From: a virus
Virus record (IMG/VR): IMGVR_UViG_3300012936_000235
Coordinates: 1-20,790 of that record
Direction: 5' to 3' (one strand)
DNA: 20,790 nucleotides
The notes beneath the pieces are model-generated. The model saw only the letters and a list, made by a program, of their open reading frames with translations. It was not told the origin of the DNA and searched no databases. Shown here piece after piece: positions 6,001 through 17,258 of this stretch; the stretch's first letter is position 1, and every line of letters begins with the position of its first letter. A program made the position numbers and the translations under genes.

Positions 6001-8142
6001 TATAGAACTGGTGTTGTATTCCAAATCATCATCACAGATCCTGGTTCTGGATATACTTCCCCACCTGTCATCACAATTACTGGTGGTCAACCAACTGCTG
6101 GCAACATTCAAGCATCTGCTACAGCAGAAATTGCTAACGGTCAGGTTGTTGTTGTTGAAATCCAAGAGTTCAATGGACTTATTGGTGGTAAAGGATATAC
6201 TGTACAACCAACAGTTACCTTCTCCGCACCATCTGGTTCTGGTACGCAAGCAACTGGTAGTGCTCTAATTGAAAACAGACTTTATGGCGATATTGTAAAC
6301 AGACTCAAGTTAACTGAAGCAGACAGTATTAACTCTAGTGATCTTCCACCAACAACAGTTAATGTCACCAGAGTTGTCAACACGTCTTCTTTCGATAGTA
6401 ACAACTGGGTATCTCTATCTTCCAATCAGATTGCAGCATCTGACATCACCTCTGGTGTTATTGAGACTGCTCGTTTGGCACTTAACTCCAACGCTGCAAA
6501 CTCCTTCACATTCCTACGTGGTGATCAGTCTTACGCTTTGGCAGTTCAATCCCTGAAGGGTGCTGAAACAAGATACTTCGCTAGACTATACAGTGATGCA
6601 AGCATTGGTGGTCAGCAGTTAGTCTTTACTACCAATGCCGACACTTTACTCGGTCACGAAGTTGTATCAAACGTTGTTGGTATCCAAGAAAACACTAATA
6701 TCGACGGGGTTCTTACTTCTGGTGGTTTAACAACGGTATCAATCTCTAACCCACTGATTGCAACAATTCCTGCAGGAACTGTTATTGAATTTGAGCGTGG
6801 CGCTTCTCCAATTACATTTGAGTCCTCTTACACTCAAGGTACATTCGTAGACAACATTGTTGTTGCTGATGGTGGTTCTAGTTTCACTGATGGACAATAC
6901 TTTGACCAGACTCTAACTGGTGGTACTGGTACAGGACTCAAAGCAAACGTCATTGTTTCTGGTGGAGAGATTACTGAACTTACCGTAACTGATGGTGGTC
7001 TCAACTATAATGCAGACTTTAACATCACTTCTCTGCCTGCAGAGATTGGATCTGGTGTCGGTCTTGTTCTCCAAGCGAAGATTAGTACAGTTAATAAGCA
7101 GTTTGCTAATGTTTCTGTTGACATTCTTCGTGCTACCAACCAGACAATTTCTGCTGATGAGTATGGCACAATCGGTGTTTCGAGATTTAGAAAGTCTCAA
7201 TTCGAGATTGGCGAATCTGGAAACGGTTCTATCACACTGAAGACTGGTGCTGACAGTGGTCTTGATGCTGACCTTTTGGACGGTGTACAAGGTGCTTACT
7301 ATCTAGATGCTTCTAATCTGAACGCAGGTACTGTACCAACAGATCGTATGTCTGGTACATACAACATCAGCATCTCGGGTCAGTCTGGTAACACACTCAG
7401 ACTTATCACTGGTGTAACTAACCCAACGTCTTCTCCATCTCCTAACCTGTTCTCTTCTGGTATTATTGCTGATACTAGAAACAACACTGCTGATGGTCTG
7501 CTTGACGGTGGTCAAAGACACCTAGTAATGACTATCAGAAACTTTGGTTCTGGATTTGATGCTACTGGTGGTGGTGCTAGACAGTTAGCATTTACTGATA
7601 ATGACAACATGTGGCTTCGTGGTTCTGGAACCACTTTGGATGACTGGGGTTCTTGGGGTAAGGTCTGGACCTCACTCAACGATGGTCCTGGTACTGACCT
7701 TGATGCTGACAAACTCGATAACCGCCAAGGTATCTGGTATCAGAACGCATTCAACATAAACTTCGGTGAGTTGTCTGACAATAGACTTCCAGACTTCTTC
7801 ACTCCTAAATCGATTCAAGATAGTTTAGATATTCTTTCAATTTCTGGTAATGCAAGATACAGAATCTACATCTCTGGTTTGATTCTAACTTCTTCACCAT
7901 TCCTACCTGGCAACCCAATTAACCTCTATAACAACTTAGCACAGAGTGTTGGTGAAATTCAGATTACTCAGATCGTAACTAATGACGTAACTGATAACTT
8001 TAACGATTTTACAATCATTTATGGTGTACTACAGTCTGGTACTTTTGATGGTGCTGAGACTATTGGTGTAGCAAACAACCGTGTTGCTTTCCAAGACTTT
8101 ACCCTCGACTCCACAGGTACTTTCCAAGTTGCAAAACTTTAA
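1..8142 (+). CDS. Giant tail/fibre structural protein, 5'-partial, ending at an in-frame TAA
   Basis: The frame is open from base 1, so the true start lies upstream; the first possible internal start, a TTG at 94, has no special support. The visible 2,713 residues are a mosaic typical of cyanophage tail or fibre proteins. An N-terminal part (around 150-400) has the look of a beta-helix entry domain (YVSQTIGSDDNDGRS). Six approximately 80-residue beta-rich repeats follow (823-1323 and 2086-3060), with HTFVSA linker motifs. Next come two CRRDI alpha-helical domains (3610-4480), a glycine-rich beta-helix-like section (4660-5000), a fibre motif KLPTQKAVKDYI (5626-5661), GSGYTSPP-type beta modules (6040-6240), and two DADLLDG/DADKLDN modules near 7260 and 7690. 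No enzyme motif is seen. It probably acts outside the capsid as a fibre or baseplate-associated spike. The same frame resumes straight after the TAA and runs to 9744, so this is probably not the natural C terminus. The structural role is secure at family level; the exact fibre position is inferred. Confidence 0.88.
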   Translation, partial: KHIGFRIVDDTQPYYEETGDSGLYPRSITPLLGDKSDKIATTEYVLNLAQNDVGGRIYVSQTIGSDDNDGRSAVAPVRTIKKACQEAWKTPGVKETIIVAGGDYLEDNPISIPPDASVVGDNLRLVIIRPANPRKHIFKFGDKNYVIGVTYRDQVDSNGDSVATWDFAMVFDDKQRIDIDPSANGDFGLSFPVGHQIFGPNRERVTFQTNTGLNNLTAGLSLRGVNTGATALVNEVIFDQTTGVQAFISGTANIEILSGSFISGETFEYFITTPYTPTNVTYDPQTGISEFTVPNHGFSDGDKIRINIESLGFTCGMDGNTNVKFYPRSSDPVANQFLTISAATTNTFELDVGDSQLVNHQVSYATYDPASGVAVLTIGTHTLTVGTSIKLRTESLGFTCSKDGYSSVHFYPRTTDPAYDTAIEILEVTSTTITINVGESGPEDQYEHAYDSSLANAVISGGDYPHTFVSARANALDYLDAEYEFVSTDIQSIRAEGEVVFTNEPGEVEYPISRIDISLQGTTEVATGGFQYGWDGAGPEDLGGIVFYTNALIGRQNVHELKEGQEILIEGLPTSGPDLSFLNGKQRIYKVLEDADGRARRFVIPKKTTVITDSNFEPGNLAKVSSASKGVTLTLLNSPNKFDMATPVARRFQDASLQIRNNIDFIADEVVGRVNDEFKKEYFAVYDVDGTPTQQFTPTDVTYDPSTGLSTFTVANHGLSIGDGVKIEEDSIVFTCAMDGNNTEHTAPQSHHYSTGKALPIESVTTNTFTLNVGASGPNQLYTPTNATYDPSTGNLVLTIGTHQLDVGEGIVIDDNSLTFTCTMDGNDSAKTYPRPGHDLFSQRSIPITAISENTITVNVGVSPSNKYFQPTDVAYNASTGDMTVTVGQHGLQVGKSVVLEDNSFAFTCDQDGNTQVHTYPRAGQDPYSGKSIEITNVGFTSHTPTDAVYDAAAGTIQFTLASHGFTDGDYIMVEDNALTYSCVLDGNTVNKSYPRTNYDYASNRYFEISNVTQNGFRINIGGSDYTGAHTLVSIATDAIRRQDGTFTINVGDAGTASGSTHTFVSAQPAAIKFEPQSTHTFVSATAEAVKHLPQSAHTFVRAATNALSIGGDEFKLFLGPSRFVHNYVSGGTVTFGGSTYNITSFTYDNTVTGSATVTTDSAIPGLANDSIVQLADILLECTVDNVVTQKTYPSFNIPVSDNKCRRDIRHFLNAVIRDLEYGSNYNVIDAAKKYIQGTQIATYIDNEIIQTVRAIEYARELAIFAMRKWRTGTGLPTDPIYTAQYTSLPKYIDSTILEDLTQPGVEHCANVKSAINVLSYLFVDVLTNDASGTKLDAGYLIARNRDFIADEALAKTEAQYPNHNLSDINQRKCRRDINYIITALIRDIILGGNAAIVTNAEEYYSGTILTGIPEAQRDETIYAFEQVRDLCILAMRNWVTLGGAGAVYTPVHSPIPLFTDSSILVDQLGTPYCAGIESAITTSFTLLNDILRGDIAPGGTVKNFGTLLDTVDLYTYPDVTIYDANGTVLTPRSDYDDFPIIEASPYTQNSSIISFLGGGGALIDGSRVKQPNCPFPGLELDGSATFPNQGKSMVAAAFTIVSFGGIGYKVINDGYTQLVSVFVIFCADGVLSESGGYASITNSATNFGIFALRAIGFREEAYVFDVGTITNVSATPTGRTIFTVDGLGREPLEHYVVKIDGFENVSSEIEYFIDAVDAVTVGPPFSAQLTIDSGSGGGAEFKNTATQQAVSTTSLNGETIRLHRPSIVNSSSHTWEFAGSGTNYNSLPENGGVKVEANEQVSERYGRVYVSGTDELGDFKVGVFARIENRTGNITFTGTVTISEVEFLKLKGGDVVVTGFDASNTLGGANSTDSKLPTQKAVKDYITNNLGPYINKPYSTNAVPRALVELTDSGKISVDQIPALRPFSVYTVPDAAARTSIEGALAGDIAIQQDTSTSFILNNDLDSLFASFPVDPTLSFTLGDIFTGSQSNGQIQATEYRTGVVFQIIITDPGSGYTSPPVITITGGQPTAGNIQASATAEIANGQVVVVEIQEFNGLIGGKGYTVQPTVTFSAPSGSGTQATGSALIENRLYGDIVNRLKLTEADSINSSDLPPTTVNVTRVVNTSSFDSNNWVSLSSNQIAASDITSGVIETARLALNSNAANSFTFLRGDQSYALAVQSLKGAETRYFARLYSDASIGGQQLVFTTNADTLLGHEVVSNVVGIQENTNIDGVLTSGGLTTVSISNPLIATIPAGTVIEFERGASPITFESSYTQGTFVDNIVVADGGSSFTDGQYFDQTLTGGTGTGLKANVIVSGGEITELTVTDGGLNYNADFNITSLPAEIGSGVGLVLQAKISTVNKQFANVSVDILRATNQTISADEYGTIGVSRFRKSQFEIGESGNGSITLKTGADSGLDADLLDGVQGAYYLDASNLNAGTVPTDRMSGTYNISISGQSGNTLRLITGVTNPTSSPSPNLFSSGIIADTRNNTADGLLDGGQRHLVMTIRNFGSGFDATGGGARQLAFTDNDNMWLRGSGTTLDDWGSWGKVWTSLNDGPGTDLDADKLDNRQGIWYQNAFNINFGELSDNRLPDFFTPKSIQDSLDILSISGNARYRIYISGLILTSSPFLPGNPINLYNNLAQSVGEIQITQIVTNDVTDNFNDFTIIYGVLQSGTFDGAETIGVANNRVAFQDFTLDSTGTFQVAKL
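823..3060 (+). repeat. Six diverged ~80-residue tandem beta repeats in the giant tail protein
   Basis: The repeats start near 823, 1084, 2086, 2341, 2602 and 2818. The shared pattern is PTxxTYDPxTG, a beta-hairpin segment, HGxxxGDxIxxEDNSLxFTCxMDGN, YPRxxDxxxxxxxxI and TxNTFxxNVG. The first two and the last four form separate blocks divided by about 760 bases of different sequence. Short HTFVSA/HTFVRA units follow at about 1396 and, three times, at 3184-3310. They are protein-level repeats, diverged in DNA, and probably form a beta-rich fibre shaft. Confidence 0.85.
3610..4480 (+). repeat. Two tandem CRRDI helical domains in the giant tail protein
   Basis: Two copies of a roughly 150-residue mainly helical unit start at KCRRDIRHFLNAVIRDLEYG (near 3610) and KCRRDINYIITALIRDIILG (near 4120). 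Both contain the order CRRDI, IRD, ARELAIFAMRKW or VRDLCILAMRNW, a linker, and then C-A-x-V/I-x-S-A-I. A short NxDFIADE motif precedes each copy in some form (near 1981 and 4030). The domain stands out because it is helical inside an otherwise beta-rich fibre protein. I recognise the pattern from cyanophage structural proteins but know no function for it. Confidence 0.75.
8140..8142 (+). other. In-frame TAA interrupting the giant tail gene
   Basis: The stop reads in the context GCA AAA CTT TAA AGT GAT. The preceding frame is open for over 8.1 kb and the following frame for 1.6 kb without another stop, and both sides have the same fibre-type composition. A single C-to-T change (CAA to TAA, glutamine) would explain it. 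A sequencing or assembly error, a real nonsense mutation, a natural gene split or stop readthrough all remain possible. Confidence 0.75.
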
Positions 8143-9744
8143 AGTGATGGTGGTACTGCAAACCTCAGACTTGGTAGAAAGGATGGCATTCCTTCTTCCC
8201 CAGGTATCTACTTCAGATCTTCTGAGCAAGCAGCAGCAAACTATAACACTGCAATTATCGCAACTGGCGGTAACAGCACAGACTCCAGTGGTACGCTAGA
8301 CGTACAGGTTTTCAACGCTGATGGATTCTCTATCAACGGCAACACAGTCTGGAACACTGGTAACATCACTTTCAATACTGGAAGCGTAGCAAACACAGGT
8401 GTTATTCGTGATGCTAACGGTGGATTCGGTGCTGGCACTATCACTCTAGATGCTGGTTCTCAACTGGTAGGTTCTGCTTCGCTGAACGTACTGAAGTCTG
8501 GTGATACCATGTCTGGTCCTTTGACCATTACTGGTGTACTAGCAACCACTCAGGCGCTGAGCATTTCTGGTAGAGCAGACTTCCTAAGCAACATCACAGT
8601 TGCTACTGATCTGTCAGTTGCGACCGACACTTTATATGTTGATTCCTCAGATAGACGTGTTGGTATTGGTCACAACAATCCATTATCGCTGTTCCATGTC
8701 ATTAGTCCTAATGATGGATCTTTAGAAGGTCTTGATGCTTGGGCAATTTTTGAAGAACAAACTAATAATCATGGAAGAATTCAATTTGGTTATTCTGCTG
8801 GATCTCCACAGATTGGACTTAGCGATAGAACTGGCGATCAGTTCTGGGCAATTGGTGCAGACGATACAAATGTAGGTTACTTCACTGTTTCCTTTGATGG
8901 AACTACTGTTCCATCAATCAATTCATCTGCTAATGGTGGAACCAATTCTGGTGCAGTTAGATTACAACTTAACAGCACTGGTACATTGTTCTTAGGAACA
9001 TCTGGAACAACTGCTACTGATTACAAACTACATGTTGCTGGTAACATCTATACCTCAACAAAACTTCTTATCAATAACGCATCTAACAACAATGGTGCTC
9101 CAATCGAATTTAAAGGATCCACTGGATTCAGAAACTTCAGAATTGGCAACCAGTTACTTGCAGATGATATCTTCGATATCACACCTTCTGACACCAATGG
9201 TGGCGTTGATTGGGGTTCAACTCCTGCTATCGCAATCAAGGGTAATACCAGAAGAGTTGCAATTAACACAACTGCATTCAGTGGAACAGATCCTGAAGAT
9301 AGCACACAAAGAGATTATCAACTCAACGTTCAGGGTGATGTTAACTTCAATGGTCAACTATTCCAGAACAACGCTGAGTTTGTTACCTCACGTTGGACTG
9401 AATCTGCAAATGAAACTGATATCTTTAGAGCATCTAAAGTTTGGATCAATGCTGATCCTACCGTAAATGGATTCACTGGCAACCCAGATTACGGTCTACA
9501 AGTTTCTGGAAGTTTGGGCATCAATGGTGCTTCCTTTACTAGTGGTGCAAACACAGAAGTTATGTACGTCAATGGTGATCGTCAGTTCATTGATACTTAT
9601 GGCGTCTTCAAGACTAATAGGAACGTTATTGATGAAAATATCACAATTCCATCAAATACTAACGCAATGAGTGCAGGACCATTAACTATAAATAATGGTA
9701 TAACAATCACCATTGCCGCAGGTTCTTCCTGGTCCGTTGTATAA
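8143..9744 (+). CDS. C-terminal continuation of the giant tail protein (ORF with first ATG at 8509)
   Basis: This is the same reading frame as the gene at 1-8142, carried on after the TAA. The 122 codons from 8143 to 8508 are open and protein-like (SDGGTANLRLGRKDG, then SINGNTVWNTGNITF). The first in-frame ATG is at 8509, giving a 411-residue product. That ATG falls inside a common phage-fibre motif, SGDTMSGPLTITG, and has no convincing ribosome-binding site, so it is a poor initiation site. Later parts show DRRVGIGHNNPLSLFHV, KLHVAGNIYTSTKLLINN and DYQLNVQGDVNFNGQLF, motifs of fibre shaft or tip proteins. The end, SAGPLTINNGITITIAAGSS, resembles the usual finish of marine phage fibre proteins, so the C terminus looks complete. 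No S74 autoprotease or chaperone domain is evident. It may be the C-terminal part of a protein of at least 3,240 residues, or a separate product if the split is real. Confidence 0.75.
   Translation, partial: SDGGTANLRLGRKDGIPSSPGIYFRSSEQAAANYNTAIIATGGNSTDSSGTLDVQVFNADGFSINGNTVWNTGNITFNTGSVANTGVIRDANGGFGAGTITLDAGSQLVGSASLNVLKSGDTMSGPLTITGVLATTQALSISGRADFLSNITVATDLSVATDTLYVDSSDRRVGIGHNNPLSLFHVISPNDGSLEGLDAWAIFEEQTNNHGRIQFGYSAGSPQIGLSDRTGDQFWAIGADDTNVGYFTVSFDGTTVPSINSSANGGTNSGAVRLQLNSTGTLFLGTSGTTATDYKLHVAGNIYTSTKLLINNASNNNGAPIEFKGSTGFRNFRIGNQLLADDIFDITPSDTNGGVDWGSTPAIAIKGNTRRVAINTTAFSGTDPEDSTQRDYQLNVQGDVNFNGQLFQNNAEFVTSRWTESANETDIFRASKVWINADPTVNGFTGNPDYGLQVSGSLGINGASFTSGANTEVMYVNGDRQFIDTYGVFKTNRNVIDENITIPSNTNAMSAGPLTINNGITITIAAGSSWSVV
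8509..9744 (+). CDS. Tail fibre-like protein, 411 aa (conventional ATG-initiated call)
   Basis: If the TAA at 8140-8142 is taken at face value, a standard gene caller would place a gene here beginning with MSGPLTITGVLATTQALSIS. The product is a fibre-type protein with repeated beta-strand motifs and the closing NAMSAGPLTINNG segment. I list it separately because a reader may meet it in other annotations, but I favour the view that it is the distal part of the frame beginning before base 1. The next gene starts 6 bases after its stop, and a late promoter motif for that gene lies inside its 3' end. Confidence 0.6.
   Translation: MSGPLTITGVLATTQALSISGRADFLSNITVATDLSVATDTLYVDSSDRRVGIGHNNPLSLFHVISPNDGSLEGLDAWAIFEEQTNNHGRIQFGYSAGSPQIGLSDRTGDQFWAIGADDTNVGYFTVSFDGTTVPSINSSANGGTNSGAVRLQLNSTGTLFLGTSGTTATDYKLHVAGNIYTSTKLLINNASNNNGAPIEFKGSTGFRNFRIGNQLLADDIFDITPSDTNGGVDWGSTPAIAIKGNTRRVAINTTAFSGTDPEDSTQRDYQLNVQGDVNFNGQLFQNNAEFVTSRWTESANETDIFRASKVWINADPTVNGFTGNPDYGLQVSGSLGINGASFTSGANTEVMYVNGDRQFIDTYGVFKTNRNVIDENITIPSNTNAMSAGPLTINNGITITIAAGSSWSVV
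9687..9694 (+). promoter_or_regulatory. T4-type late promoter TATAAATA upstream of the adhesin triplet
   Basis: An exact match to the T4 late promoter core lies inside the 3' end of the fibre frame, 56 bases before the first adhesin ATG at 9751. Its position suits transcription of 9751-12024 independently of the giant gene. It is coding sequence as well, so chance cannot be excluded. Confidence 0.55.
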
Positions 9745-9750
9745 AGAACT

Positions 9751-10503
9751 ATGAGTACAATATTTGTAAATAGTATCAAAGCTTCTACAGGCAATACCGT
9801 GACCATCCCAAATGGTCACGCATTGCAAATTGGTAGTCAAGTCCTTGATCAAAACGCTATTCTCCCATCAGGATCTGGTAACGAGGGTAAATTAGTTTAC
9901 TCAGATGGATCTAGTTTCGTCTATTCAGATTATGGTGCTAGCAACATCATCACCTTCACTGCTAACGGAACATATACACCTAGTGCAGGTACTAGATTGG
10001 TATATGTAAGACTTTGTGGCGGTGGAGGTGGTGGCACTAGTTATTCTGAAACTGGTGGTGCTGGTGGATATGCTGAAGGATATGTCAGTATGAATGGCGT
10101 TTCCAGTGTCCAGATTACTGTTGGAGATGGTGGAAACGGCACTACATATTCTGGTGCTGCAGCACAAGGTGGAACCACTTCATTCGGTTCTTACATATCT
10201 GCTACAGGAGGCAATGGTGCCAATTCCAACCACAGACATTGTGGTGGTACTGGTGGACTAGGATCTGGCGGTATGCTCGCCATCTATAGTGGTGGCGGTT
10301 GTGGTCATGGTCGTTATAACGGCAAAGGTGGAACTACTTATTTCGGTGGTGGTGGTCCAGGTGGTCACCCCAATGGTGGAAGATATTCCAACAATAATCA
10401 AGATAATGCTGCTCCTGGAGGCGGTGGTGCCTGTGGTTGGGCTTCCTCCCATGGTGGCGCTAGAGGAAAAGGTGGTATTATCTCAATCATGGAGTATATG
10501 TAA
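9751..10503 (+). CDS. Glycine-rich tail adhesin-like protein, copy 1
   Basis: This 250-residue protein is the first of three tandem paralogues. Residues 1-85 form a non-repetitive N-terminal part that begins MSTIFVNSIKASTGNTVTIP, a pattern shared by all three and probably used for attachment. From about residue 88 it becomes very glycine-rich (GGGGGG, GGAGGYAEGY), with variable loops between glycine runs. HRHCGG occurs at 161-166. The composition matches the glycine-rich domain family of phage tail proteins and recalls the polyglycine-II sandwich adhesins known from gp38 of T-even-like phages. It is probably a tip adhesin contacting the host surface, but receptor binding is inferred. The C terminus (GGIISIMEYM) departs from the GKDGIVVxYEx ending of copies 2 and 3. 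Its stop abuts the next start (TAAATG). Confidence 0.8.
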   Translation: MSTIFVNSIKASTGNTVTIPNGHALQIGSQVLDQNAILPSGSGNEGKLVYSDGSSFVYSDYGASNIITFTANGTYTPSAGTRLVYVRLCGGGGGGTSYSETGGAGGYAEGYVSMNGVSSVQITVGDGGNGTTYSGAAAQGGTTSFGSYISATGGNGANSNHRHCGGTGGLGSGGMLAIYSGGGCGHGRYNGKGGTTYFGGGGPGGHPNGGRYSNNNQDNAAPGGGGACGWASSHGGARGKGGIISIMEYM

Positions 10504-11262
10504 ATGTCAGTTTTAAGAGTAAACGAAATTAGATCCCAGGCGGGAACTATTATTGATATTCCTTCAGGACATAACCTAAGTCTTGATGGAACTATCATAG
10601 ATACAACTTCTATGCCACCTCCAGTTAGTGGCAACCCAGGAACATTCCTCAAAAATATTAGCGGAAGTCCAACTTGGACTGCTGTAGGTCCACATAGAAT
10701 TATTGTTTTCACTGGAACTAGCACTTACACTCCATCCGCTGGCGTTACCAAAATTTTGGTCAGACTTGTTGGTGGTGGCGGTGCAGGATCTGGCGTTGGC
10801 GAAGGTGGTGGTGCTGGTGGATTTGCAGAAAGAATTCTTGATGTTGCTGGCGTTTCTAACGTGAACGTGACTATTGGTCAAGGTAGCGAAGCATCCACGC
10901 AATACTCTTCCGCAGCTGGTGGTGGTGGAACAACATCATTTGGATCTTATCTTTCTGCTACTGGTGGTCATGGTGGTAATCAAGACCATAGACACTGCGG
11001 TGGTGTAGGTGGTGTAGGTTCTGGTGGTGATATGAATCTATATGGTGGTGGTGGAGCAGGACACCAGTATTATGCTGCATGTACTGGTGGTGTTTCTTTC
11101 TTTGGTGGATCTGGTCCTAGTGGATATCCCAACGGAGGAACATACGCTCTAAATAATAGTGCTAACGCTGCTTTTGGTGGTGGTGGATCTCCTGGATACC
11201 ATACTCAACAGCAGGGTGCTTACGGTAAAGACGGCATCGTTGTAGTCTACGAGTTTAAATAA
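10504..11262 (+). CDS. Glycine-rich tail adhesin-like protein, copy 2
   Basis: This 252-residue paralogue has the same architecture as its neighbours: the N-terminal MSVLRVNEIRSQAGTIIDIP segment, a proline-bearing linker (SMPPPVSGNPG), a beta segment ending ITKILVRLV-like, then glycine-rich repeats. HRHCGG is at residues 162-167. The tail GKDGIVVVYEFK closely matches copy 3. Loops between glycine runs, such as GHQYYAACTGGVSFFGG, differ strongly from the other copies, as expected for receptor-contact loops. The ATG directly follows the preceding TAA, suggesting translational coupling. Copies 2 and 3 look closer to each other than to copy 1 in the linker and C terminus. Host-recognition function is inferred from family and location beside the fibre gene. 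Confidence 0.8.
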   Translation: MSVLRVNEIRSQAGTIIDIPSGHNLSLDGTIIDTTSMPPPVSGNPGTFLKNISGSPTWTAVGPHRIIVFTGTSTYTPSAGVTKILVRLVGGGGAGSGVGEGGGAGGFAERILDVAGVSNVNVTIGQGSEASTQYSSAAGGGGTTSFGSYLSATGGHGGNQDHRHCGGVGGVGSGGDMNLYGGGGAGHQYYAACTGGVSFFGGSGPSGYPNGGTYALNNSANAAFGGGGSPGYHTQQQGAYGKDGIVVVYEFK

Positions 11263-12024
11263 ATGTCAACATTAAATGTAAATCAAATTGAATCTTCCCA
11301 GGGTGGTGTAGTTATCATTCCAACTGGGTACACTCTGTCAGTAGGCGGTCTTCAAATCAATGAAGATACTATGCCACCATCCCCATCTGGAAATGCCAAC
11401 AAAGCATTGTATACTGATGGTAGTGCTATCTCATACAATCTTGCTGGTCCAGATAACATTAGAGTTTACAATACTAGCGGACAATACATCCCTCCATCAA
11501 ATGTGACTAAATTCTTTGTCATGGTTGTTGGTGGTGGTGGCGCTGCATCTGGATATTCTGAGTCTGGTGGTGCTGGTGGTTATTCTGAAAGACTACTAAC
11601 TCCAGCAGATATTGGATCTTCTATTCAGGTGACTGTTGGTACTGGAAGCACATCTTATTCCACATATTCTGGTGCTGCTGGACAAGGAAACACTTCATCG
11701 TTTGGTAGTCTTTGCTCCGCTACAGGAGGACTAGGAGGAAACCAAAGTCACAGGCATTGTGGTGGTGTTGGTGGAACTGGTTCTGGTGGAGACCTAAATA
11801 TCTATGGTGGCGGGGGCACAGGACATACCTACTATGGCGTTGGTCATGGTGGGGGTAGTTACTTTGGTGGTGGAAGTCCTTGTGGACACCCCAATGGCGG
11901 TAACTATGCATATAACCACAGAGATCGTGCTGCCCCTGGTGCAGGCGGTGCTGGTGGTTACAGAAGAAATAATCACGGATCAACTGGTAAAGATGGCATT
12001 GTAGTCATCTATGAGTACATCTAA
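11263..12024 (+). CDS. Glycine-rich tail adhesin-like protein, copy 3
   Basis: The third paralogue has 253 residues. It begins MSTLNVNQIESSQGGVVIIP, has the linker TMPPSPSGNANKALYTDG, then a glycine-rich distal domain from about residue 88. HRHCGG lies at 163-168, and the C terminus is GKDGIVVIYEYI. Its loops are rich in Tyr, His and Arg (GHTYYGVGHGGGSYFGGG; YNHRDRAAPGAGGAGGYRRN), which would suit glycan or protein contacts. The start is immediately after the stop of copy 2. The stop codon overlaps the AATAAATA late-promoter-like motif serving the next gene. It could be a minor virion adhesin or an alternative fibre tip; which of the three is displayed cannot be told from sequence. Confidence 0.8.
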   Translation: MSTLNVNQIESSQGGVVIIPTGYTLSVGGLQINEDTMPPSPSGNANKALYTDGSAISYNLAGPDNIRVYNTSGQYIPPSNVTKFFVMVVGGGGAASGYSESGGAGGYSERLLTPADIGSSIQVTVGTGSTSYSTYSGAAGQGNTSSFGSLCSATGGLGGNQSHRHCGGVGGTGSGGDLNIYGGGGTGHTYYGVGHGGGSYFGGGSPCGHPNGGNYAYNHRDRAAPGAGGAGGYRRNNHGSTGKDGIVVIYEYI

Positions 12025-12030
12025 TAAATA
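12023..12030 (+). promoter_or_regulatory. Late promoter-like motif AATAAATA
   Basis: The motif matches the NATAAATA form of cyanophage T4-type late promoters. It overlaps the TAA of the third adhesin gene and lies 24 bases before the ATG at 12055, a spacing like that of the motifs at 16985, 17222 and 20155. Confidence 0.55.
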
Positions 12031-12054
12031 GACACAGGAATAACGTTTACTATC

Positions 12055-12504
12055 ATGAAAAGAGTTTTACTTGACTTTAGAGGTATTATTAACGAGGTTG
12101 TAGACCCTGGACAAGAATTTGATGTCTACGATGGTCCCGATTCAACCATCAAGTGGGTTACTTGTCCTCATGCTGATGTCACTTCTATGTGGCACTGCTC
12201 CAATGGAGAATGGATTGCTCCAGAGCAAAAATTAAATGATGATCATGATCTCCAAAGACGTGTTGCTTATGGAGATCTAGGAGATCAACTTGACATGCTT
12301 TATAAGGACATCAAAGCAGGTAATCTTGCAAACGGTTCCTGGGTCCAGCGTATTGATCAAGTAAAAGCATCTATTACTAAACAGTCTGAATGGGAAGCAA
12401 CTTCTGAATATGCTCAACTAAAGAGAATTCATTTCCATTCCGAAGCAGACCCTGCTTGGAACCATCTTCCCGAAAGCGCACTGACACCTCCCAACATTAC
12501 CTGA
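12055..12504 (+). CDS. Small tail-region protein with DQLDMLYKDI motif
   Basis: The 149-residue product has no signal peptide or membrane segment. The N-terminal half (MKRVLLDFRGIINEVVDPGQ, then TIKWVTCPHADVTSMWHCSN and GEWIAPEQ) has the compact, tryptophan-containing look of small proteins next to phage fibre genes. Residues 70-110 carry RVAYGDLGDQLDMLYKDI...WVQRIDQVKASI, a short module I recognise from many phage tail-fibre and fibre-assembly regions. A plausible role is a fibre-associated or fibre-assembly accessory protein, but this rests on motif and neighbourhood only. A late promoter motif lies just upstream, and the halogenase gene follows 14 bases after the stop, with no terminator between. 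Confidence 0.7.
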   Translation: MKRVLLDFRGIINEVVDPGQEFDVYDGPDSTIKWVTCPHADVTSMWHCSNGEWIAPEQKLNDDHDLQRRVAYGDLGDQLDMLYKDIKAGNLANGSWVQRIDQVKASITKQSEWEATSEYAQLKRIHFHSEADPAWNHLPESALTPPNIT

Positions 12505-12518
12505 TTTAATTAGTTGTT

Positions 12519-14120
12519 ATGAAAGTAAAAACAGTATGTATTGTCGGGGGTGGATCCTCTGGCTGGATGACTGCTGCTGCTCTGGCAAAAAATATGCCAG
12601 ATCTCAGGATCATGTTGATAGAGTCTCCAAATGTTCCCACACTTGGAGTTGGCGAATCTACTCTCGGTCATATTAACAGATATCTTTATTCTGTTGGTAT
12701 GCTAGAAAAAGATTATGAGTGGATGCCTGCGTGTGATGCTACGTATAAAATATCAATTCAGTTTACTGATTTTAAAGAAAAAGGACATTCATTTCAGTAT
12801 CCTTTTGGTGAGGTAGATGCTACTGAAGTAGGAACGATTGATAACTACTATCATCTTATTCAAATTGATCCTGATTATCCTTTAGACTATTCACAATTTC
12901 ACAACCCAATCACTTATCTTACAGAAAAAAATAAGATGGTTGGTAATAGAAATATTATCAGGAATTTTGATTTTAAATGGGATACAGCGTATCATTTCGA
13001 TGCAATTAAATTTGGTAATTATTTAAGAGATAAAGTTGCCATTCCAAATGGTGTTATCCACATCAAAGATGATGTCATAGAAGTTATTCCCAAACAGGAT
13101 GGTGAAGGTATTGATTGCTTGCTTACCAAGAATTGTCCTACGATGAGAGTGGAAGCAGATCTATTCATTGACTGCACTGGTTTCAAATCTCTTCTATTAG
13201 AGCAAACATGTGGATCTAAGTTCATTAGTTTTGAAAACGACCTTCTAAATGATCGTGCAATCGCATGTAGATTGCCTTATACAGATAGAGAGAAAGAGAT
13301 GGTCAACTATACTGACTGTCATGCTCTATCTTCTGGATGGGTTTGGGAGACTCCCTTGTGGAATATTAGAGGAACAGGTTACGTACACTCCTCCAAATTT
13401 ATTTCCTTAGATGGTGCTAAGGAAGAATTTAGAAATCACTTGGCAACTAAAATTGGTAAAGAAAAAGCAGAAGAACTTGAGTTTCGTGTCATTGACATGA
13501 AACATGGTAAGAGAGAAAAAGCATGGGTGGGTAACTGTGTTGGTATCGGACTATCGTATGGATTTTTAGAACCATTAGAATCTACAGGTCTTTATACTAC
13601 ACATGAAAATATTCTCAATTTAATTGATACTCTAGAGAGAAGAAATGGTTACATCACAAAAATTGATCGTGATGGATTTAACTATGCATGTAATTTTACT
13701 TTAGAGTCTATGCGTTCTTTTGTTGCTATGCATTATGTATTGTCACAGAGACGTGATAGTGCATACTGGAGACACTATGCCGATAAAATAGAAATGGTGC
13801 CATATGAGAAGATCGTAGATGATAAGGTTATCTCCCCAAGACTATACAAAGAGTTCTTGCACAACGTAAACGTAGCACATGCTCAAAGTGATCTGGAAGG
13901 AACCCTTTACATTGCTTCTGGTCTAGGGTATAATCCCATTGGACGCACAGAGGTGAACTACAGGTGTTATGAAAAGAGGTTGTCTGATGCCGATTACATT
14001 AAAGGTATTGGCAAAAAGATCCTGAACTACAGAGACCAAGTTTACGAAAAGTTAGAGAACTGTCCTACGACTTTTGAATTTACTAGAGATTATGTTTACG
14101 AAAGGAAAGACAAAACCTAA
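12519..14120 (+). CDS. FAD-dependent halogenase (tryptophan halogenase family, VirX1-like)
   Basis: The 533-residue protein is full length for the family (PrnA is 538). The Rossmann FAD motif GGGSSGWMTAAALAK is at 10-24 and GVGEST at 43-48. The catalytic lysine expected to carry the haloamine or hypohalite falls at K77 in TYKISIQF. The halogenase-type W-x-W segment is W274-V-W276-E-T-P, and the PLESTG segment at 352-357 places E354 where PrnA has its catalytic Glu346. FAD-dependent halogenases use reduced flavin, O2 and halide to halogenate electron-rich aromatic substrates. Marine cyanophages are known to carry such genes, and a viral member, VirX1, was reported to iodinate diverse substrates. 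No flavin reductase lies in the window, so the host would have to supply reduced flavin. The 3' end overlaps the next gene by 29 bases. Substrate and halide are unknown. Confidence 0.88.
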   Translation: MKVKTVCIVGGGSSGWMTAAALAKNMPDLRIMLIESPNVPTLGVGESTLGHINRYLYSVGMLEKDYEWMPACDATYKISIQFTDFKEKGHSFQYPFGEVDATEVGTIDNYYHLIQIDPDYPLDYSQFHNPITYLTEKNKMVGNRNIIRNFDFKWDTAYHFDAIKFGNYLRDKVAIPNGVIHIKDDVIEVIPKQDGEGIDCLLTKNCPTMRVEADLFIDCTGFKSLLLEQTCGSKFISFENDLLNDRAIACRLPYTDREKEMVNYTDCHALSSGWVWETPLWNIRGTGYVHSSKFISLDGAKEEFRNHLATKIGKEKAEELEFRVIDMKHGKREKAWVGNCVGIGLSYGFLEPLESTGLYTTHENILNLIDTLERRNGYITKIDRDGFNYACNFTLESMRSFVAMHYVLSQRRDSAYWRHYADKIEMVPYEKIVDDKVISPRLYKEFLHNVNVAHAQSDLEGTLYIASGLGYNPIGRTEVNYRCYEKRLSDADYIKGIGKKILNYRDQVYEKLENCPTTFEFTRDYVYERKDKT

Positions 14121-14904
14121 GGTTCGTTTCCACACTTTAGTTCCTGCTGTCAGAACCCTATACCCTATCATACCTTCTTCTAAATTAAAGAGGACATGGC
14201 AGGAACCTGAACAACGGGAGTATAAGGAAAAGGTTTCTAAATGCCCTTTTGCTTTTATACTGGATACTGGAGATCAGATTGCTCATAGATCTGTAGGTAA
14301 GTGTCCATCTATTAACAGTTTAATGTCTTCTGGTTATGTTGTAACTGCACCAGCAGATTTTAAGGTCCATGTTGTAGATGGAAAGATGCAAATCCAATGC
14401 GGACAAATCATCCCAGGTTCTGAGTATGTTGGATTCCATGATTCAGATCATGGTAAGTGGTTGAAAGATTCCACTAAAGATTCGTGTATGGATGAAGTCA
14501 TTAAAGTCAACACCCCTTGGAGGGTGACTTCTAGTGATCCAGACATTGTGTTCCTGCAATTGAAAGTCCCGTTTCTTCATGAAGAAAGGTTTACTGCAAT
14601 TACTGGTGTACTAGATCCTCGTCATGCATATGAAATCAATCCACAGATGTGGTGGCATTTGACTGAAGATGGTGTTACTACAATAGAAGCAGGAACGCCT
14701 CTAGCAATGTATATACCTATTTCTAGAAAGTTACTAGGTCCTGACGTTGAAGTTCTTATAGAGGACGCAGATGAAATTGATTTTAAAATGGAATCTGAAA
14801 TGATGTACGCAGGTAACCACAAATTTTTAGAGCTAGATACATTAACGTCAAGAGTAAAACGTATTTTTAAAATTCTTCAGAAATATCATGGAATCAAATA
14901 TTGA
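14092..14904 (+). CDS. Hypothetical protein, DUF6065-like
   Basis: I chose the ATG at 14092, inside the halogenase 3' end, over the upstream TTG at 14074; this gives 270 residues starting MFTKGKTKPKVRFHTLVPAV. Visible features are KCPSINSLMSSGYVVTAPAD, then VNTPWRVTSSDPDIVFLQL, and later INPQMWWHLTEDG followed by TTIEAGTPLAMYIPISR. The order of these (CP, GY/W, PAD, PW, WW, EAGTPLAxxIPxxR) loosely resembles the DUF6065 family, often found with small-molecule or peptide-modification genes; that assignment is from memory and tentative. No metal triad or nucleotide site is obvious. There is no signal peptide. The gene is overlapped at both ends by enzyme genes, so it is probably co-expressed with them. 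It may be a partner or scaffold of the oxygenases, but function is unknown. Confidence 0.7.
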   Translation: MFTKGKTKPKVRFHTLVPAVRTLYPIIPSSKLKRTWQEPEQREYKEKVSKCPFAFILDTGDQIAHRSVGKCPSINSLMSSGYVVTAPADFKVHVVDGKMQIQCGQIIPGSEYVGFHDSDHGKWLKDSTKDSCMDEVIKVNTPWRVTSSDPDIVFLQLKVPFLHEERFTAITGVLDPRHAYEINPQMWWHLTEDGVTTIEAGTPLAMYIPISRKLLGPDVEVLIEDADEIDFKMESEMMYAGNHKFLELDTLTSRVKRIFKILQKYHGIKY

Positions 14905-15493
14905 ATTATTTCCTATCACAGTTAACAAATCTCAGATAGTATTACCTGAGGAACAGCGGATAGAATGTATTCAGACCATCCATGATATTCTAAACCAACC
15001 TGCTAAAGCATTTTTTCCTGGAGAAGATGGCGAGACTACAGGTTCCAGAGATCTATGCTTACATGGCAGACCACAATTTGCTTCTTTGTTTTTACAAATT
15101 CAAGAACAAGTGCAAAAATATTGGAATCAACTTTTGTATACTACAGAACTAACTCCACAAATAGACAGTTCGTGGGCAAACGTTCATAGAAAAGGAAACT
15201 GGACTATGCAGCATTGTCATAATGATGGGTACTGGGGATCATGTCACATTTCTGGTGTGTACTACATCCACAAAGATTGGAATGAATCTGATATCGAATT
15301 TATTGATCCATTAGATTTGATACATAGATTAACACCATCACAGAATATGATGGGGATTCACTCAAAGGCAACTTCTTTTGAGACAAAAACCAACGATTTA
15401 CTTTTGTTCCCTTCTTGGTTAAGTCACCGAGTAAACAGGAACAAATTTGACGAACCTCGCATTGCTATTTCATTTAATTATAAAGGTGTTTGA
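14888..15493 (+). CDS. 2OG-Fe(II) oxygenase 1 (2OG-FeII_Oxy_5/TIGR02466-like)
   Basis: The 201-residue product has the pattern of small 2-oxoglutarate/Fe(II) oxygenases: SSWANVHRKGNWTMQHCHND, then SGVYYI, then LLLFPSWLSHRV and PRIAISFNY. In that family the HxH-SGVYY segment and the later LFPSWLxH...RIxISFN segment form the iron and cosubstrate sites. Here they are H109/H111, with D113 nearby, H180, and R191 as the likely 2-oxoglutarate-binding arginine. These enzymes hydroxylate or otherwise oxidise a substrate using O2 and 2-oxoglutarate. The start overlaps the preceding gene by 17 bases. Residue assignments come from motif alignment by eye. The substrate is unknown; protein side chains and small molecules are both used by this superfamily. 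Confidence 0.8.
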   Translation: MESNIELFPITVNKSQIVLPEEQRIECIQTIHDILNQPAKAFFPGEDGETTGSRDLCLHGRPQFASLFLQIQEQVQKYWNQLLYTTELTPQIDSSWANVHRKGNWTMQHCHNDGYWGSCHISGVYYIHKDWNESDIEFIDPLDLIHRLTPSQNMMGIHSKATSFETKTNDLLLFPSWLSHRVNRNKFDEPRIAISFNYKGV

Positions 15494-15494
15494 T

Positions 15495-16106
15495 ATGTTA
15501 TGTTACGAAGAAAATAATTTTTTAGGCAAACAACTAAATGATCATGTTTGTGAATGCATTATGCATAAAAATTATCCCTGGTATTATCTTCCTGACATTA
15601 CTAGAGAAGATGTAAATAAAGATGAGTACGCTCAACCAGGGTTTCAACATACACCTTTTGTAGGATACAAACCTACATCAAATTTTTATGATTCTATTTC
15701 TTTCCTTCCAGGATTAATTGGTAGAAAAATTGAAGAGTTGACAGATTATAAATTTGAAAACCTGCTCTTGAATAGAGTTAGAGTAGGTCTGAATATTCCA
15801 TTGACTGATGAGAGTAGAAAATTTAATCTTCCATATAATTTTCCTCATGTAGATTGCGATGCTAGAGAAGCATTGATCAGCAAACACTGGACAGCATTGT
15901 ATTATCTAAACGATAGCGATGGTGCTACATATATTTTTGAGGACACAGAGAAGCGAGAAAAAGCAGAAGATTATATTATCCATAAAGCGATTGCACCCAG
16001 AAAGGATAAGTTGCTTATCTTTGATGGAGAGCAATATCACGCAAGTTCAAGTCCCATCAAAGCAAACAATAGAGTTGTAATCACGGTAAATTTCCATGTT
16101 AGATAA
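15495..16106 (+). CDS. 2OG-Fe(II) oxygenase 2
   Basis: The ATG at 15495, one base after the TGA of oxygenase 1, gives 203 residues (MLCYEENNFLGKQLNDHVCE). Longer versions of this frame run back into the previous gene and have no support. The double-stranded beta-helix motifs are complete: H118-V-D120 in YNFPHVDCD, then WTALYYLND, then H182 in DGEQYHASSSP and R193 in NNRVVITVNF. This is the canonical HxD...H...R set for iron and 2-oxoglutarate. The early region (PGFQHTPFVGYKP, RVRVGLNIPLTDE) matches the lead-in strands of phage prolyl-hydroxylase-like proteins. It is not closely similar to either flanking oxygenase outside the motifs, so it is probably not a recent duplicate. It overlaps the next gene by 11 bases. 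The substrate is unknown. Confidence 0.8.
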   Translation: MLCYEENNFLGKQLNDHVCECIMHKNYPWYYLPDITREDVNKDEYAQPGFQHTPFVGYKPTSNFYDSISFLPGLIGRKIEELTDYKFENLLLNRVRVGLNIPLTDESRKFNLPYNFPHVDCDAREALISKHWTALYYLNDSDGATYIFEDTEKREKAEDYIIHKAIAPRKDKLLIFDGEQYHASSSPIKANNRVVITVNFHVR

Positions 16107-16728
16107 GGTTCACTATTTAAAAGGTGCTATGCCTAAAGAGGTAGTATCTTTTCTACTCATGCAGTTTACTATGATGCATGATTGTATGGAGACTACACAA
16201 GGAGTAAATGGTTTTGTAGATCCTACAGTTGGGGACAACAATTTCTCGTGGTATGGATCTCTGCCTTTTGAAACTTCACTGGAATATTTCAGACCTTTGT
16301 TTGAGAAAACTATTGGAAAGAACTTGCATCCTACGTATTCTTATGGTAGAATATATGGTCATGGTAGTTATCTAAATAAACATATGGACCGCAGAAGTTC
16401 ACAGTGGTCTGCCAGTTGCTGTCTGAGTAAAGATTCAGATTGGCCAATTAGTTTTGAACATGAAGGTAAAATTAAAACCTTTGAAATGGAACCTGGAGAC
16501 ATGGTTCTATTCCCTGGATCCACTATCGTTCATTATAGAAATAGATATAAAGGTCAAAGGCATGTTCAATTCTTCTTACAATATGTTGAGCAAGATGGTA
16601 AGTATTCTTACTTAAAGTATGATACAAGACCATGCTTAGCATCTGGTTTTGAATTAGTAGATCAATCCATTAAAGACGAACTAAACAGTCAAGTATACAC
16701 ACCACCTGAGGAAGATTATGACATCTGA
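16096..16728 (+). CDS. 2OG-Fe(II) oxygenase 3 (prolyl 4-hydroxylase-like fold)
   Basis: This 210-residue protein carries H96-M-D98 in SYLNKHMDRRSSQWSASCCL, a core segment DWPISFEHEGK, then EPGDMVLFPGSTIVHYRN with distal H146, and R155 in KGQRHVQFFLQYV as the probable 2-oxoglutarate anchor. The order and spacing match the HxD...H...R facial triad of prolyl-hydroxylase-type oxygenases. The start codon is embedded in the end of oxygenase 2 and its stop overlaps the next gene by 11 bases, so the cassette is probably translated as one coupled unit. It differs in sequence from oxygenases 1 and 2. No catalytic residue appears to be missing. Target unknown; a phage structural protein is a testable option given the adjacent adhesin genes. 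Confidence 0.8.
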   Translation: MLDKVHYLKGAMPKEVVSFLLMQFTMMHDCMETTQGVNGFVDPTVGDNNFSWYGSLPFETSLEYFRPLFEKTIGKNLHPTYSYGRIYGHGSYLNKHMDRRSSQWSASCCLSKDSDWPISFEHEGKIKTFEMEPGDMVLFPGSTIVHYRNRYKGQRHVQFFLQYVEQDGKYSYLKYDTRPCLASGFELVDQSIKDELNSQVYTPPEEDYDI

Positions 16729-16993
16729 AACTGTTACCGAAGAAACTGCTACAGAAGAGATTACGTTTGATAGTCTCTGGGAAACATTCTCCACTCAATT
16801 AGAAGATTGCACTGCTAAATTTAATGAGTGTGAAAGAAAAATTAATGAAGAGACAGCATCTTGCAATCGAATTGATTTACAAGAACTCAATACGTTAAAA
16901 ATTGCTAAGCATAAATTGGAAGCAGCACTGGAAGCATTGGATCTCGTTAGAGTTCATTGCCTCAAGATGGACTCTCTCATCAACTATAAATAA
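16718..16993 (+). CDS. Small acidic coiled-coil protein, 91 aa
   Basis: The product starts MTSETVTEETATEEITFDSL with an acidic, threonine-rich head. From about residue 20 it is helical with heptad-like spacing (LWETFSTQLEDCTAKFNECE, then LNTLKIAKHKLEAALEALDL). It has four cysteines and no membrane segment. I do not recognise a family with certainty; small helical proteins just upstream of gene 13 are common in cyanophages. Its stop codon is part of an exact TATAAATA motif that probably drives the next gene. Confidence 0.65.
   Translation: MTSETVTEETATEEITFDSLWETFSTQLEDCTAKFNECERKINEETASCNRIDLQELNTLKIAKHKLEAALEALDLVRVHCLKMDSLINYK
16985..16992 (+). promoter_or_regulatory. Exact T4-type late promoter TATAAATA
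   Basis: A perfect match to the T4 late core lies across the stop codon of the 91-residue gene and 27 bases before the ATG at 17020. It sits in one of the few non-coding gaps, which makes chance less likely than for motifs inside genes. Confidence 0.65.
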
Positions 16994-17019
16994 TTCGTAC
17001 ATCATTTCTCGTTAGTACC

Positions 17020-17205
17020 ATGGACACTGAACAACTTAAGGCAAATTTTGAAGAGCAACTAGGTAAAGCAGATCAACAAATTGCAGAACTAGAAGCAAAT
17101 TTGGATAAAGCAAAAGAATATAAACTTAAACTACAAGGCGGTTTAGAGACTCTTCAACTCTTAGAAAAACAAGCAGAAGAATCAGAAGAAGCACCTGCAG
17201 AATAA
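17020..17205 (+). CDS. Small coiled-coil protein, 61 aa
   Basis: The product, MDTEQLKANFEEQLGKADQQ onward, is almost wholly predicted helix with regular leucine/isoleucine heptads (IAELEANLDKAKEYKLKLQG, then LETLQLLEKQ) and an acidic tail (EESEEAPAE). Its composition resembles the preceding 91-residue protein, though direct homology is not clear. It lies between a perfect late promoter motif and a strong terminator, so it could be made from its own short transcript. Function unknown; small coiled coils of this kind may be scaffolding or adaptor proteins. Confidence 0.65.
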   Translation: MDTEQLKANFEEQLGKADQQIAELEANLDKAKEYKLKLQGGLETLQLLEKQAEESEEAPAE

Positions 17206-17212
17206 CTACAAG

Positions 17213-17245
17213 TCCCTACCTGATAAATACAGGTAGGGATTTTTT
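17213..17245 (+). terminator. Rho-independent terminator
   Basis: A perfect 10-bp stem pairs 17213-17222 with 17230-17239 around the 7-base loop ATAAATA, followed by a run of six T at 17240-17245. It closes the unit upstream of gene 13. It begins 7 bases after the stop of the 61-residue gene. Confidence 0.9.
17222..17229 (+). promoter_or_regulatory. Late promoter-like GATAAATA inside the terminator loop
   Basis: The terminator loop plus its closing G reads GATAAATA, matching NATAAATA. It lies 29 bases before the gp13 ATG, the same spacing as the other late motifs here. It could start the neck/terminase operon just as the hairpin ends the preceding one. Confidence 0.5.
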
Positions 17246-17258
17246 GTATGGATAATCA

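Follow-up and report, generated by a model that had tools for sequence, protein, structure and literature searches.

In MibH-type tailoring of ribosomal peptides, a flavin halogenase acts on an aromatic residue of the peptide and is accompanied by oxygenases. Here, we examine a flavin-dependent halogenase and a group of 2-oxoglutarate (2OG)-Fe(II) oxygenases encoded behind the tail fibre genes in a window of 20,790 bases (the whole stretch of DNA analysed; IMG/VR record IMGVR_UViG_3300012936_000235, which consists of the same 20.8-kb fragment) from a T4-like cyanomyovirus. Reports of halogenases and of multiple 2OG oxygenases in cyanophages go back to at least 2010 (PMC3037559). The halogenases have been read as protection against antibiotics (PMC2984593, PMC9964418) or as auxiliary metabolic genes (PMC10452541, PMC10436341), and the oxygenases as agents of DNA repair, of effects on 2OG and nitrogen, or of several functions including general protein modification (PMC3037559, PMC9146016, PMC9964418). 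VirX1 of phage Syn10 (PDB 6QGM), the first characterised viral halogenase according to PMC8407142, is reported there to have a large, open active site that accepts bulky substrates; it is described as an in vitro iodinase, and the available part of that description mentions neither a native substrate nor an adhesin-linked context. Among fibres, that of phage Pam3 is reported to be trimeric, with a Gly-rich end proposed for host recognition and a chaperone that was undetected in virions (PMC9608196), and for gp38 of T2-type phages a similar Gly-rich sandwich that bears receptor loops has been described (PMC12892980); the available parts of these accounts describe no enzyme module for either system.

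We found that the halogenase and the oxygenases belong to an ordered block of Gly-rich adhesins, a chaperone-like gene, one or two VirX1-type halogenases, a protein with a predicted dUTPase fold and an array of oxygenase-like genes. A preliminary description of the window had seen a compact five-gene oxidative pathway. What it observed holds true but is an understatement: the window holds a short example of a widespread module, in which the array has 3 to 11 oxygenase-like genes, often with two halogenases, and is tied to Gly-rich adhesins.

Organisation and transcription of the locus

On the + strand, a very long fibre frame is followed by three Gly-rich paralogues, the phrog_1787 gene, the halogenase and the phrog_7084 gene, and then by three 2OG oxygenases, two small genes and homologues of gp13-gp16 (neck, tail sheath stabiliser and small terminase). 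The preliminary description had reported an intact halogenase, an unknown protein and three 2OG-Fe(II) oxygenases packed head to tail at 12519-16728, and all five open reading frames are indeed present, intact and on the + strand. The genes of the block are as follows.

9751..10503, + strand: Gly-rich fibre adhesin 1, 250 residues, 26% Gly (PF21722 Gly_rich_2, E 1.3e-6, above the cut-off; phrog_863)
10504..11262, + strand: Gly-rich fibre adhesin 2, 252 residues (PF21722, E 3.6e-11)
11263..12024, + strand: Gly-rich fibre adhesin 3, 253 residues (PF21722, E 3e-10; AlphaFold2 model resembles the Pam3 fibre)
12055..12504, + strand: tail-fibre-chaperone-like protein phrog_1787 (phrog_1787, E 7.6e-26; role suggested by position)
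12519..14120, + strand: flavin-dependent halogenase of the VirX1 clade, 533 residues (PF04820, E 1.3e-98; phrog_2928, 1.5e-150)
14092..14904, + strand: phrog_7084 protein, 270 residues from the ATG (dUTPase-like fold by model)
14888..15493, + strand: 2OG-Fe(II) oxygenase 1, group OX0, 201 residues (PF13759, E 3e-17; TIGR02466 above the cut-off; H111xD113, H180)
15495..16106, + strand: 2OG-Fe(II) oxygenase 2, group OX1, 203 residues (PF13640, E 3e-6, just above the cut-off; phrog_274, 4e-27; H118xD120, H182)
16096..16728, + strand: 2OG-Fe(II) oxygenase 3, group OX3, 210 residues (phrog_2954, 2e-44; PF13640 only 0.02; H96xD98, H146)

The frames of the halogenase and the phrog_7084 protein overlap by 29 bases, those of the phrog_7084 protein and oxygenase 1 by 17 and those of oxygenases 2 and 3 by 11, and a gap of 1 base separates oxygenases 1 and 2. 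The run extends past 16728, where a small gene (16718-16993) overlaps oxygenase 3. We then scanned for the cyanophage late promoter motif NATAAATA, taken from PMC2984593, and found sites on the + strand at 12023, 16985 and 17222. As previously noted for the five genes, there is none between them, the + strand being free of the motif from 12031 to 16984, and the chaperone-like gene falls within the same promoter interval as the enzymes. Because late motifs lie at 12023 and 16985 with none between, a transcript predicted from these sites likely begins at the chaperone-like gene and continues through the enzymes. The Gly-rich adhesins ahead of the enzymes also belong to the conserved module. The two motifs and the last gene of the run are:

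12023..12030, + strand: late promoter motif AATAAATA (motif scan), at the end of the adhesin 3 gene and ahead of the chaperone-like gene
16718..16993, + strand: phrog_20247, a small conserved protein whose gene ends the run (phrog_20247, E 1.3e-18)
16985..16992, + strand: late promoter motif TATAAATA (motif scan)

A looser motif, CTAAATA, occurs at 16372 within oxygenase 3, and sigma-70-like sites are no commoner than chance (21 versus 20.3 expected). Terminator-like sites number 8 in 11900-17400 on both strands (2.6 expected); one of them, a weak site on the + strand at 15659-15677, lies within oxygenase 2.

The module in related viruses

We examined the conservation of this arrangement with two IMG/VR searches, which overlap partly in contigs. 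One was selected by the phrog_7084 protein (the best 80 of 254 stretches with a relative, deduplicated to 46) and the other by the adhesin (the best 80 of at least 281 relatives, of which 79 loci were used); deduplication merged loci whose marker genes share more than 30% of their 14-mers. Genes were counted with hidden Markov models (HMMs) built from named phages and run on stop-to-stop frames. In the phrog_7084-selected loci, the halogenase is directly upstream in 79 of 80, and 67 of the 68 loci whose sequence reaches 4.5 kb upstream have an adhesin on that side. The full order of adhesin, chaperone-like gene, halogenase, phrog_7084 gene and oxygenase-like gene is present in all 38 deduplicated loci with both flanks; the test tolerated a small gene after phrog_7084 and a single oxygenase-like gene separating the halogenase from the chaperone-like gene. 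The exception, L089, which has neither a halogenase upstream nor an adhesin, was merged with L087 in deduplication. When the loci were selected by the adhesin instead, a halogenase lay at most 1.5 kb behind it in 61/61 loci with at least 2.5 kb after the last adhesin (42/42 deduplicated). Eighteen loci were excluded as cut by a contig end; 12 of these still show the halogenase and 6 end 0-577 bases past the adhesin. This arrangement is no product of chance, because it recurs in loci whose phrog_7084 proteins are 32-51% identical to that of the window, besides three near relatives.

The number of oxygenase-like genes is variable. Among 35 deduplicated blocks with uncut arrays it ranges from 3 to 11 (three in two blocks, four in two, five in six, six in twelve, seven in three, nine in two, ten in one and eleven in seven), which places the three of the window at the low end, and a relative of phrog_20247 closes the array in part of the related loci. 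In deduplicated relatives, the late motif precedes the first adhesin in 25/37, later adhesins in 13/64 and the chaperone-like gene in 21/42, and is found ahead of the first halogenase in 9/43, phrog_7084 in 2/46 and the oxygenases in 3/316.

The block also occurs in named phages. The nearest relative in the phage collection, Synechococcus phage Sf-FR1, has 94% DNA identity to the window over 12400-16800. Sf-CH3, S-RIM44 (two halogenases), Syn10 and Syn9 (two halogenases), P-TIM40 and S-CREM1 carry the block with more enzymes, the Syn10 array having ten oxygenase-like genes, and so, without phrog_7084, do P-RSM6, S-WAM1 and S-SZBM1. The chaperone-like gene, which is kept between adhesins and halogenase in the IMG/VR relatives, lies between a homologue of the Gly-rich adhesin and the halogenase in 9/9 phage loci that possess it (Sf-FR1, Sf-CH3, S-RIM44, Syn10, P-TIM40, S-CREM1, P-RSM6, S-WAM1 and S-SZBM1, all picked for their halogenase). 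The block is followed by gp13 in the group of the window and by small genes in Syn9.

Such enzymes also stand beside fibre genes in further phages. In Sf-CH11, two Gly_rich_2 proteins flank a halogenase and four oxygenase genes, and the P-SSM2 halogenase has a 2OG gene close by and 'L-shaped tail fiber protein assembly' genes as its neighbours on the opposite strand. The halogenase of S-SRM01 (28% identity by tblastn) does not belong to the VirX1 clade and has a long branch of unsure place. It is flanked by fibre genes and by a gene that bears the annotation 'gp37-gp38 adhesin tip complex'; this tip protein has a Trp-rich stretch, and comparing it with PDB and Pfam led nowhere. In the fibre locus of S-CAM8 and S-SSM5 (L279, L280), a protein with 30-34% Gly is followed by a Nol-like carbamoyltransferase gene of the opposite strand and then, in each phage, by five genes that HMMs identify as oxygenase-like. 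One further 2OG gene is annotated, and the stretch has no halogenase. This layout raises the idea of fibre hydroxylation followed by carbamoylation.

The halogenase

The window protein has the domain and the motifs of a flavin-dependent (tryptophan-type) halogenase, with GGGSSG at 10, K77, WVWETP at 274 and EPLES at 351, and may have halogenating (iodinating) activity. It is 97.7% identical to the Sf-FR1 halogenase. In a maximum-likelihood tree of 52 sequences, it falls inside a clade of 18 rows with 100/99 support, of which 15 are adhesin-linked genes (11 phages) and the other three come from S-B64, S-MbCM6 and a Myxococcota metagenome-assembled genome. VirX1 is in the same clade and is the best PDB match of the window halogenase (484 bits, residues 2-528); the window protein is 45% identical to the Syn10 gene (tblastn), and the GxGxxG, WxWxxP, catalytic Lys and EPLES sites are common to both. 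Moreover, the Syn10 gene for VirX1 itself sits in this module.

Three further observations concern halogenases elsewhere. Just past the oxygenase array, on the opposite strand, loci L057, L058, L061, L063, L067, L071, L094 and L098 have 1-2 extra halogenase genes. The Myxococcota halogenase (L099) within the cyanophage clade is near a gene resembling a nonribosomal peptide synthetase (NRPS), its cluster being judged by sequence only, and an exchange of pathways between phages and bacteria is possible from this case. Among the bacterial halogenase loci (L099-L178, the best 80 of at least 593, with crude gene calls), a TonB-receptor cluster gene is within about 8 kb of the halogenase in 30/80 (two clusters, of 22 and 8 loci, with one representative of each confirmed by Pfam), which may be a parallel link between a halogenase and a surface protein.

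The Gly-rich adhesins and the chaperone-like protein

PF21722 is above the cut-off for all three adhesins, and adhesin 3, the one modelled, has a predicted fibre fold of the Pam3 gp24/gp38-like kind. The first Foldseek match of its AlphaFold2 model (predicted local distance difference test, pLDDT, 86) is the Pam3 fibre 7ypx, gp24 (E 3e-8, template modelling score 0.53, 25% identity), followed by the Bxb1 tail tip. The chaperone-like gene comes next, as gp25 does in Pam3. The window adhesin differs from Pam3 gp24 and T2/S16-type gp38 in having no significant sequence-profile match to any PDB chain; against PDB sequences, phmmer with adhesin 3 led nowhere and the best E value of a profile search was 0.62. 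S16/PP01 gp38 was not among the best 50 Foldseek rows, which is no evidence against kinship, and tblastn with adhesin 3 returned 8 phage records only, probably owing to the low-complexity filter, other phages clearly carrying relatives. The chaperone-like protein had no match in PDB sequences (phmmer).

Window-type adhesins also differ from those of Pam3 and gp38 systems in having near-fixed Glu, Tyr, Asn and His positions in the Gly-rich part. Among 278 distinct adhesin sequences from both IMG/VR searches, the non-glycine residues E100, Y135, N160, H165 and H188 (adhesin 3 numbering) are kept in 97-99%, H209 in 91% and H219 in 84%. These positions may be acceptor sites for modification or, alternatively, may be structural.

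The phrog_7084 protein

The protein called unknown in the preliminary description, whose length of 270 residues equals the Sf-FR1 annotation, can now be given a predicted dUTPase-like fold. In an AlphaFold2 model built on a 63-sequence alignment (pLDDT 86, predicted template modelling score 0.80), dUTPases come out as the top matches among solved structures (Foldseek E 6e-4; Z 10.9, root-mean-square deviation 4.2 over 125 residues), and models without a clear match usually peak at Z 7-8. The predicted fold resembles that of the dUTPase/dCTP deaminase superfamily, but significant sequence similarity is absent: a profile search against PDB sequences gave no match, and hhalign against four bacterial dUTPases reached a probability of 1.4% and a best E value of 0.037, an unrelated control reaching 0.038. 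The hhalign path pairs what we take to be dUTPase motifs III and IV. Because sequence comparison gives no significant support, we propose the fold from the model and make no claim of dUTPase activity. A Pfam match to Replic_Relax (E 0.04) was taken as chance. A relative that is 22% identical occurs in S-RIM4 (L018 7896-8690), near ribonucleotide reductase and transaldolase genes, in a 16.7-kb stretch with no annotated halogenase.

The oxygenases

All three window oxygenases have the HxD motif and distal His of 2OG-Fe(II) enzymes together with family matches; oxygenase 3 is below all Pfam cut-offs, its assignment resting on phrog_2954 plus the HxD and His residues. The iron-motif pattern used for scanning is loose and also fires in the phrog_7084 protein, several halogenases and adhesins, and the weight is carried by the family matches. 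Oxygenase 2 led nowhere when compared with the PDB by phmmer. Array group OX2 is represented in Syn10 by a member that matches PF08007 (E 1e-16), and its nearest solved structures are the JmjC-type protein hydroxylases NO66, MINA (MINA53) and YcfD, named in PDB as histidyl or arginine hydroxylases of proteins. Group OX4 shares a PHROG family with OX6 and has no Pfam match, so that it was counted as oxygenase-like only.

Several existing names in these arrays look mistaken. Oxygenase 2 (phrog_274) carries the name 'DNA endonuclease V' but matches a 2OG family and has the iron residues; oxygenase 3 (phrog_2954), named 'ferrochelatase', shares the 2OG iron residues; and members of OX6, named 'minor coat protein', match 2OG families or share the iron residues. 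The PHROG-derived names for phrog_274, phrog_2954 and phrog_1644 conceal oxygenase arrays in annotated cyanophages.

Flanking genes

The remaining features lie on either side of the block.

94..9744, + strand: long tail fibre/adhesin frame (phrog_5342 tail fiber protein match on both halves; the start is the first start codon in the window)
17020..17205, + strand: small protein phrog_580 (PHROG match)
17210..17242, + strand: strong terminator-like hairpin of 13 pairs (terminator scan), ahead of gp13

An in-frame stop at 8140-8142 divides the long fibre frame into open reading frames at 94-8142 and 8509-9744, both in the same frame. The long fibre of Sf-FR1 is a single gene, to which window positions 7601-9000 align at 89.7% identity. 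Because this alignment has no gaps, the stop is a substitution in the window contig, either a real variant or an assembly error.

Possible substrates of the enzymes

We consider it probable that the co-transcribed late enzymes halogenate and hydroxylate the Gly-rich receptor-binding tips of the tail. The linkage itself was observed directly; we infer that the adhesins are the substrate because they and the chaperone-like gene are the constant partners of the enzymes, because OX2 (not in the window) is nearest to the protein hydroxylases NO66, MINA and YcfD, and because VirX1 reportedly has an open active site for bulky substrates (PMC8407142). The preliminary description had taken the genes as a unit under apparent late control, acting on virion or host-surface material. 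Apparent late control of a unit stands, with virion modification as the best reading, and no support was found for modification of the host surface in phages. In the proposed scheme, the chaperone-like protein would hold the adhesins during assembly while the enzymes act. The halogenase would iodinate or brominate aromatic residues whose side chains are exposed (Tyr, Trp and perhaps His), and hydroxylation of chosen tip residues (His, Asn, Pro or others) would be the work of the oxygenases. The dUTPase-fold protein, because of its constant place behind the halogenase, is probably a partner or substrate-presenting subunit and not a nucleotidase, although this is a guess. Contacts with the receptor would then draw on chemistry outside the 20 amino acids, and the gain and loss of oxygenase genes would tune it. 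Unlike in MibH-type systems, the presumed substrate would be a folded phage fibre protein and not a leader-peptide precursor.

Several observations weigh against modification of the adhesins. No modified residue has been seen, and genes can be neighbours through hitch-hiking. The most serious objection comes from the virion proteome of S-SZBM1: mass spectrometry lists gp51-gp54 of the fibre locus but not the Gly-rich adhesins gp48 and gp49 (PMC9146016 Table 1). Also missing from the list are gp42-gp45, the halogenase (gp46), the chaperone-like protein (gp47) and gp50; protein lengths were used to match this numbering to the record. S-SZBM1 is reported to lack long tail fibres (PMC9146016). As gp48 and gp49 have 8-9 tryptic peptides of 7-30 residues each, their absence may mean that modification was missed by a standard search, that their copy number is low or that they are not in the virion. 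Moreover, single enzymes occur elsewhere. The halogenases of S-B64, S-MbCM6, Syn1, S-PM2 and S-H38 lie among replication, tRNA, photosynthesis or unassigned genes and have no annotated fibre gene within 5-8 kb; those of S-B64 and S-MbCM6 belong to the VirX1 clade. Oxygenases are near a halogenase away from fibres in Syn1 (2OG genes) and probably in S-H38 ('DNA endonuclease V' genes). In S-SSM7, the halogenase is among sugar-related and oxygenase genes ahead of gp13, and in the Pelagibacter phage HTVC008M (L272 4989-6383), a halogenase and a 2OG oxygenase lie between the small and large terminase genes. In S-CAM8, the chaperone-like gene follows a later fibre gene in a stretch without a halogenase, and more distant adhesins without a halogenase may exist beyond the best 80 of at least 281. 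The window has no member of OX2, the group that carries the protein-hydroxylase signature. Finally, single oxygenases are not confined to the module, because relatives of window oxygenases 1 and 3 are spread over 154 phage records each, partly elsewhere in other phages, and an OX2 relative is among replication genes in Syn30. The preliminary description had named scattering of the genes in relatives as a reason for doubt; this doubt applies in part to single enzymes, given the five halogenases without an annotated fibre nearby and the widespread oxygenase relatives, and not to the pair of halogenase and phrog_7084.

Alternatively, the enzymes could produce or alter a metabolite of the host at a late stage of infection, such as an antibiotic-like halo-indole or a signal. 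Halogenases and oxygenases both act in natural-product pathways, VirX1 is reported to take many small aromatics in vitro (PMC8407142), a role of the halogenase in antibiotic protection has been proposed (PMC2984593, PMC9964418) and the Myxococcota member of the phage clade is near an NRPS-like gene. We nevertheless regard this as unlikely, given that the enzymes constantly accompany fibre adhesins and a chaperone-like gene, that the number of oxygenase-like genes varies from 3 to 11, unlike in a fixed pathway, and that the annotated modules of the named phages, in which many genes are 'hypothetical', include neither a substrate-supplying enzyme nor a transporter or carrier protein. Small-molecule pathway genes, such as would accompany an antibiotic halogenase of the PrnA (pyrrolnitrin) type, are likewise lacking among the assignable genes of the window, the IMG/VR loci having been scanned for the module's own families only. 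The huge fibre gene next to the block raises another candidate substrate, and the TonB-receptor genes near 30/80 bacterial halogenases suggest that surface proteins could be clients of such enzymes, so that modification might fall on other targets of the virion or host surface, protein or glycan (for example the long fibre or outer-membrane proteins of the host), rather than on the Gly-rich adhesins specifically; promoter placement and strict adjacency point instead to the adhesin and chaperone-like genes, and make such targets improbable.

An action of the dUTPase-fold protein and the oxygenases on bases, in nucleotide or DNA modification, is suggested by the fold itself and by the proposal of DNA repair for phage 2OG oxygenases (PMC3037559, PMC9146016). 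It appears very unlikely, as the window array lies between fibre and neck genes and not at uvsX/uvsY/uvsW, OX2 is nearest to protein hydroxylases and the similarity to dUTPase sequences is not significant. We see equally little prospect for a metabolic use of 2OG, proposed for cyanophages (PMC3037559), in which the oxygenases would lower 2OG or feed succinate and their placement would be incidental: this leaves unexplained the halogenase, the several sequence-diverse oxygenase groups in a conserved order and the late placement.

Implications for phage host recognition

The gene families of the module are known, and the module and its tie to receptor-binding tips are apparently undescribed in the literature searched; among the open-access papers listed, no title or abstract opening reports fibre modification. 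There is an even chance that this is a new kind of phage system. We are also evenly divided on the wider view that phages carry a dedicated, modular oxidative and halogenating machine for their receptor-binding tips, in which the chemistries differ (a halogenase or a carbamoyltransferase, plus hydroxylases) and the number of oxygenases changes, host recognition evolving through enzymes as well as tip sequence and iodine or bromine being put on proteins at sea.

The conserved block links a large class of cyanophage halogenases and 2OG oxygenases to receptor-binding tips rather than to auxiliary metabolism. It offers a native-substrate hypothesis for VirX1 and for the blocks of up to about eleven oxygenase-like genes, which can be addressed in the cultured phages Syn9, Syn10, S-CREM1, S-SZBM1 and P-RSM6. 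If this hypothesis is true, receptor binding in these marine viruses would depend on non-standard residues that are invisible to sequence-based host prediction, and host recognition would involve a kind of chemistry not yet described in phages.

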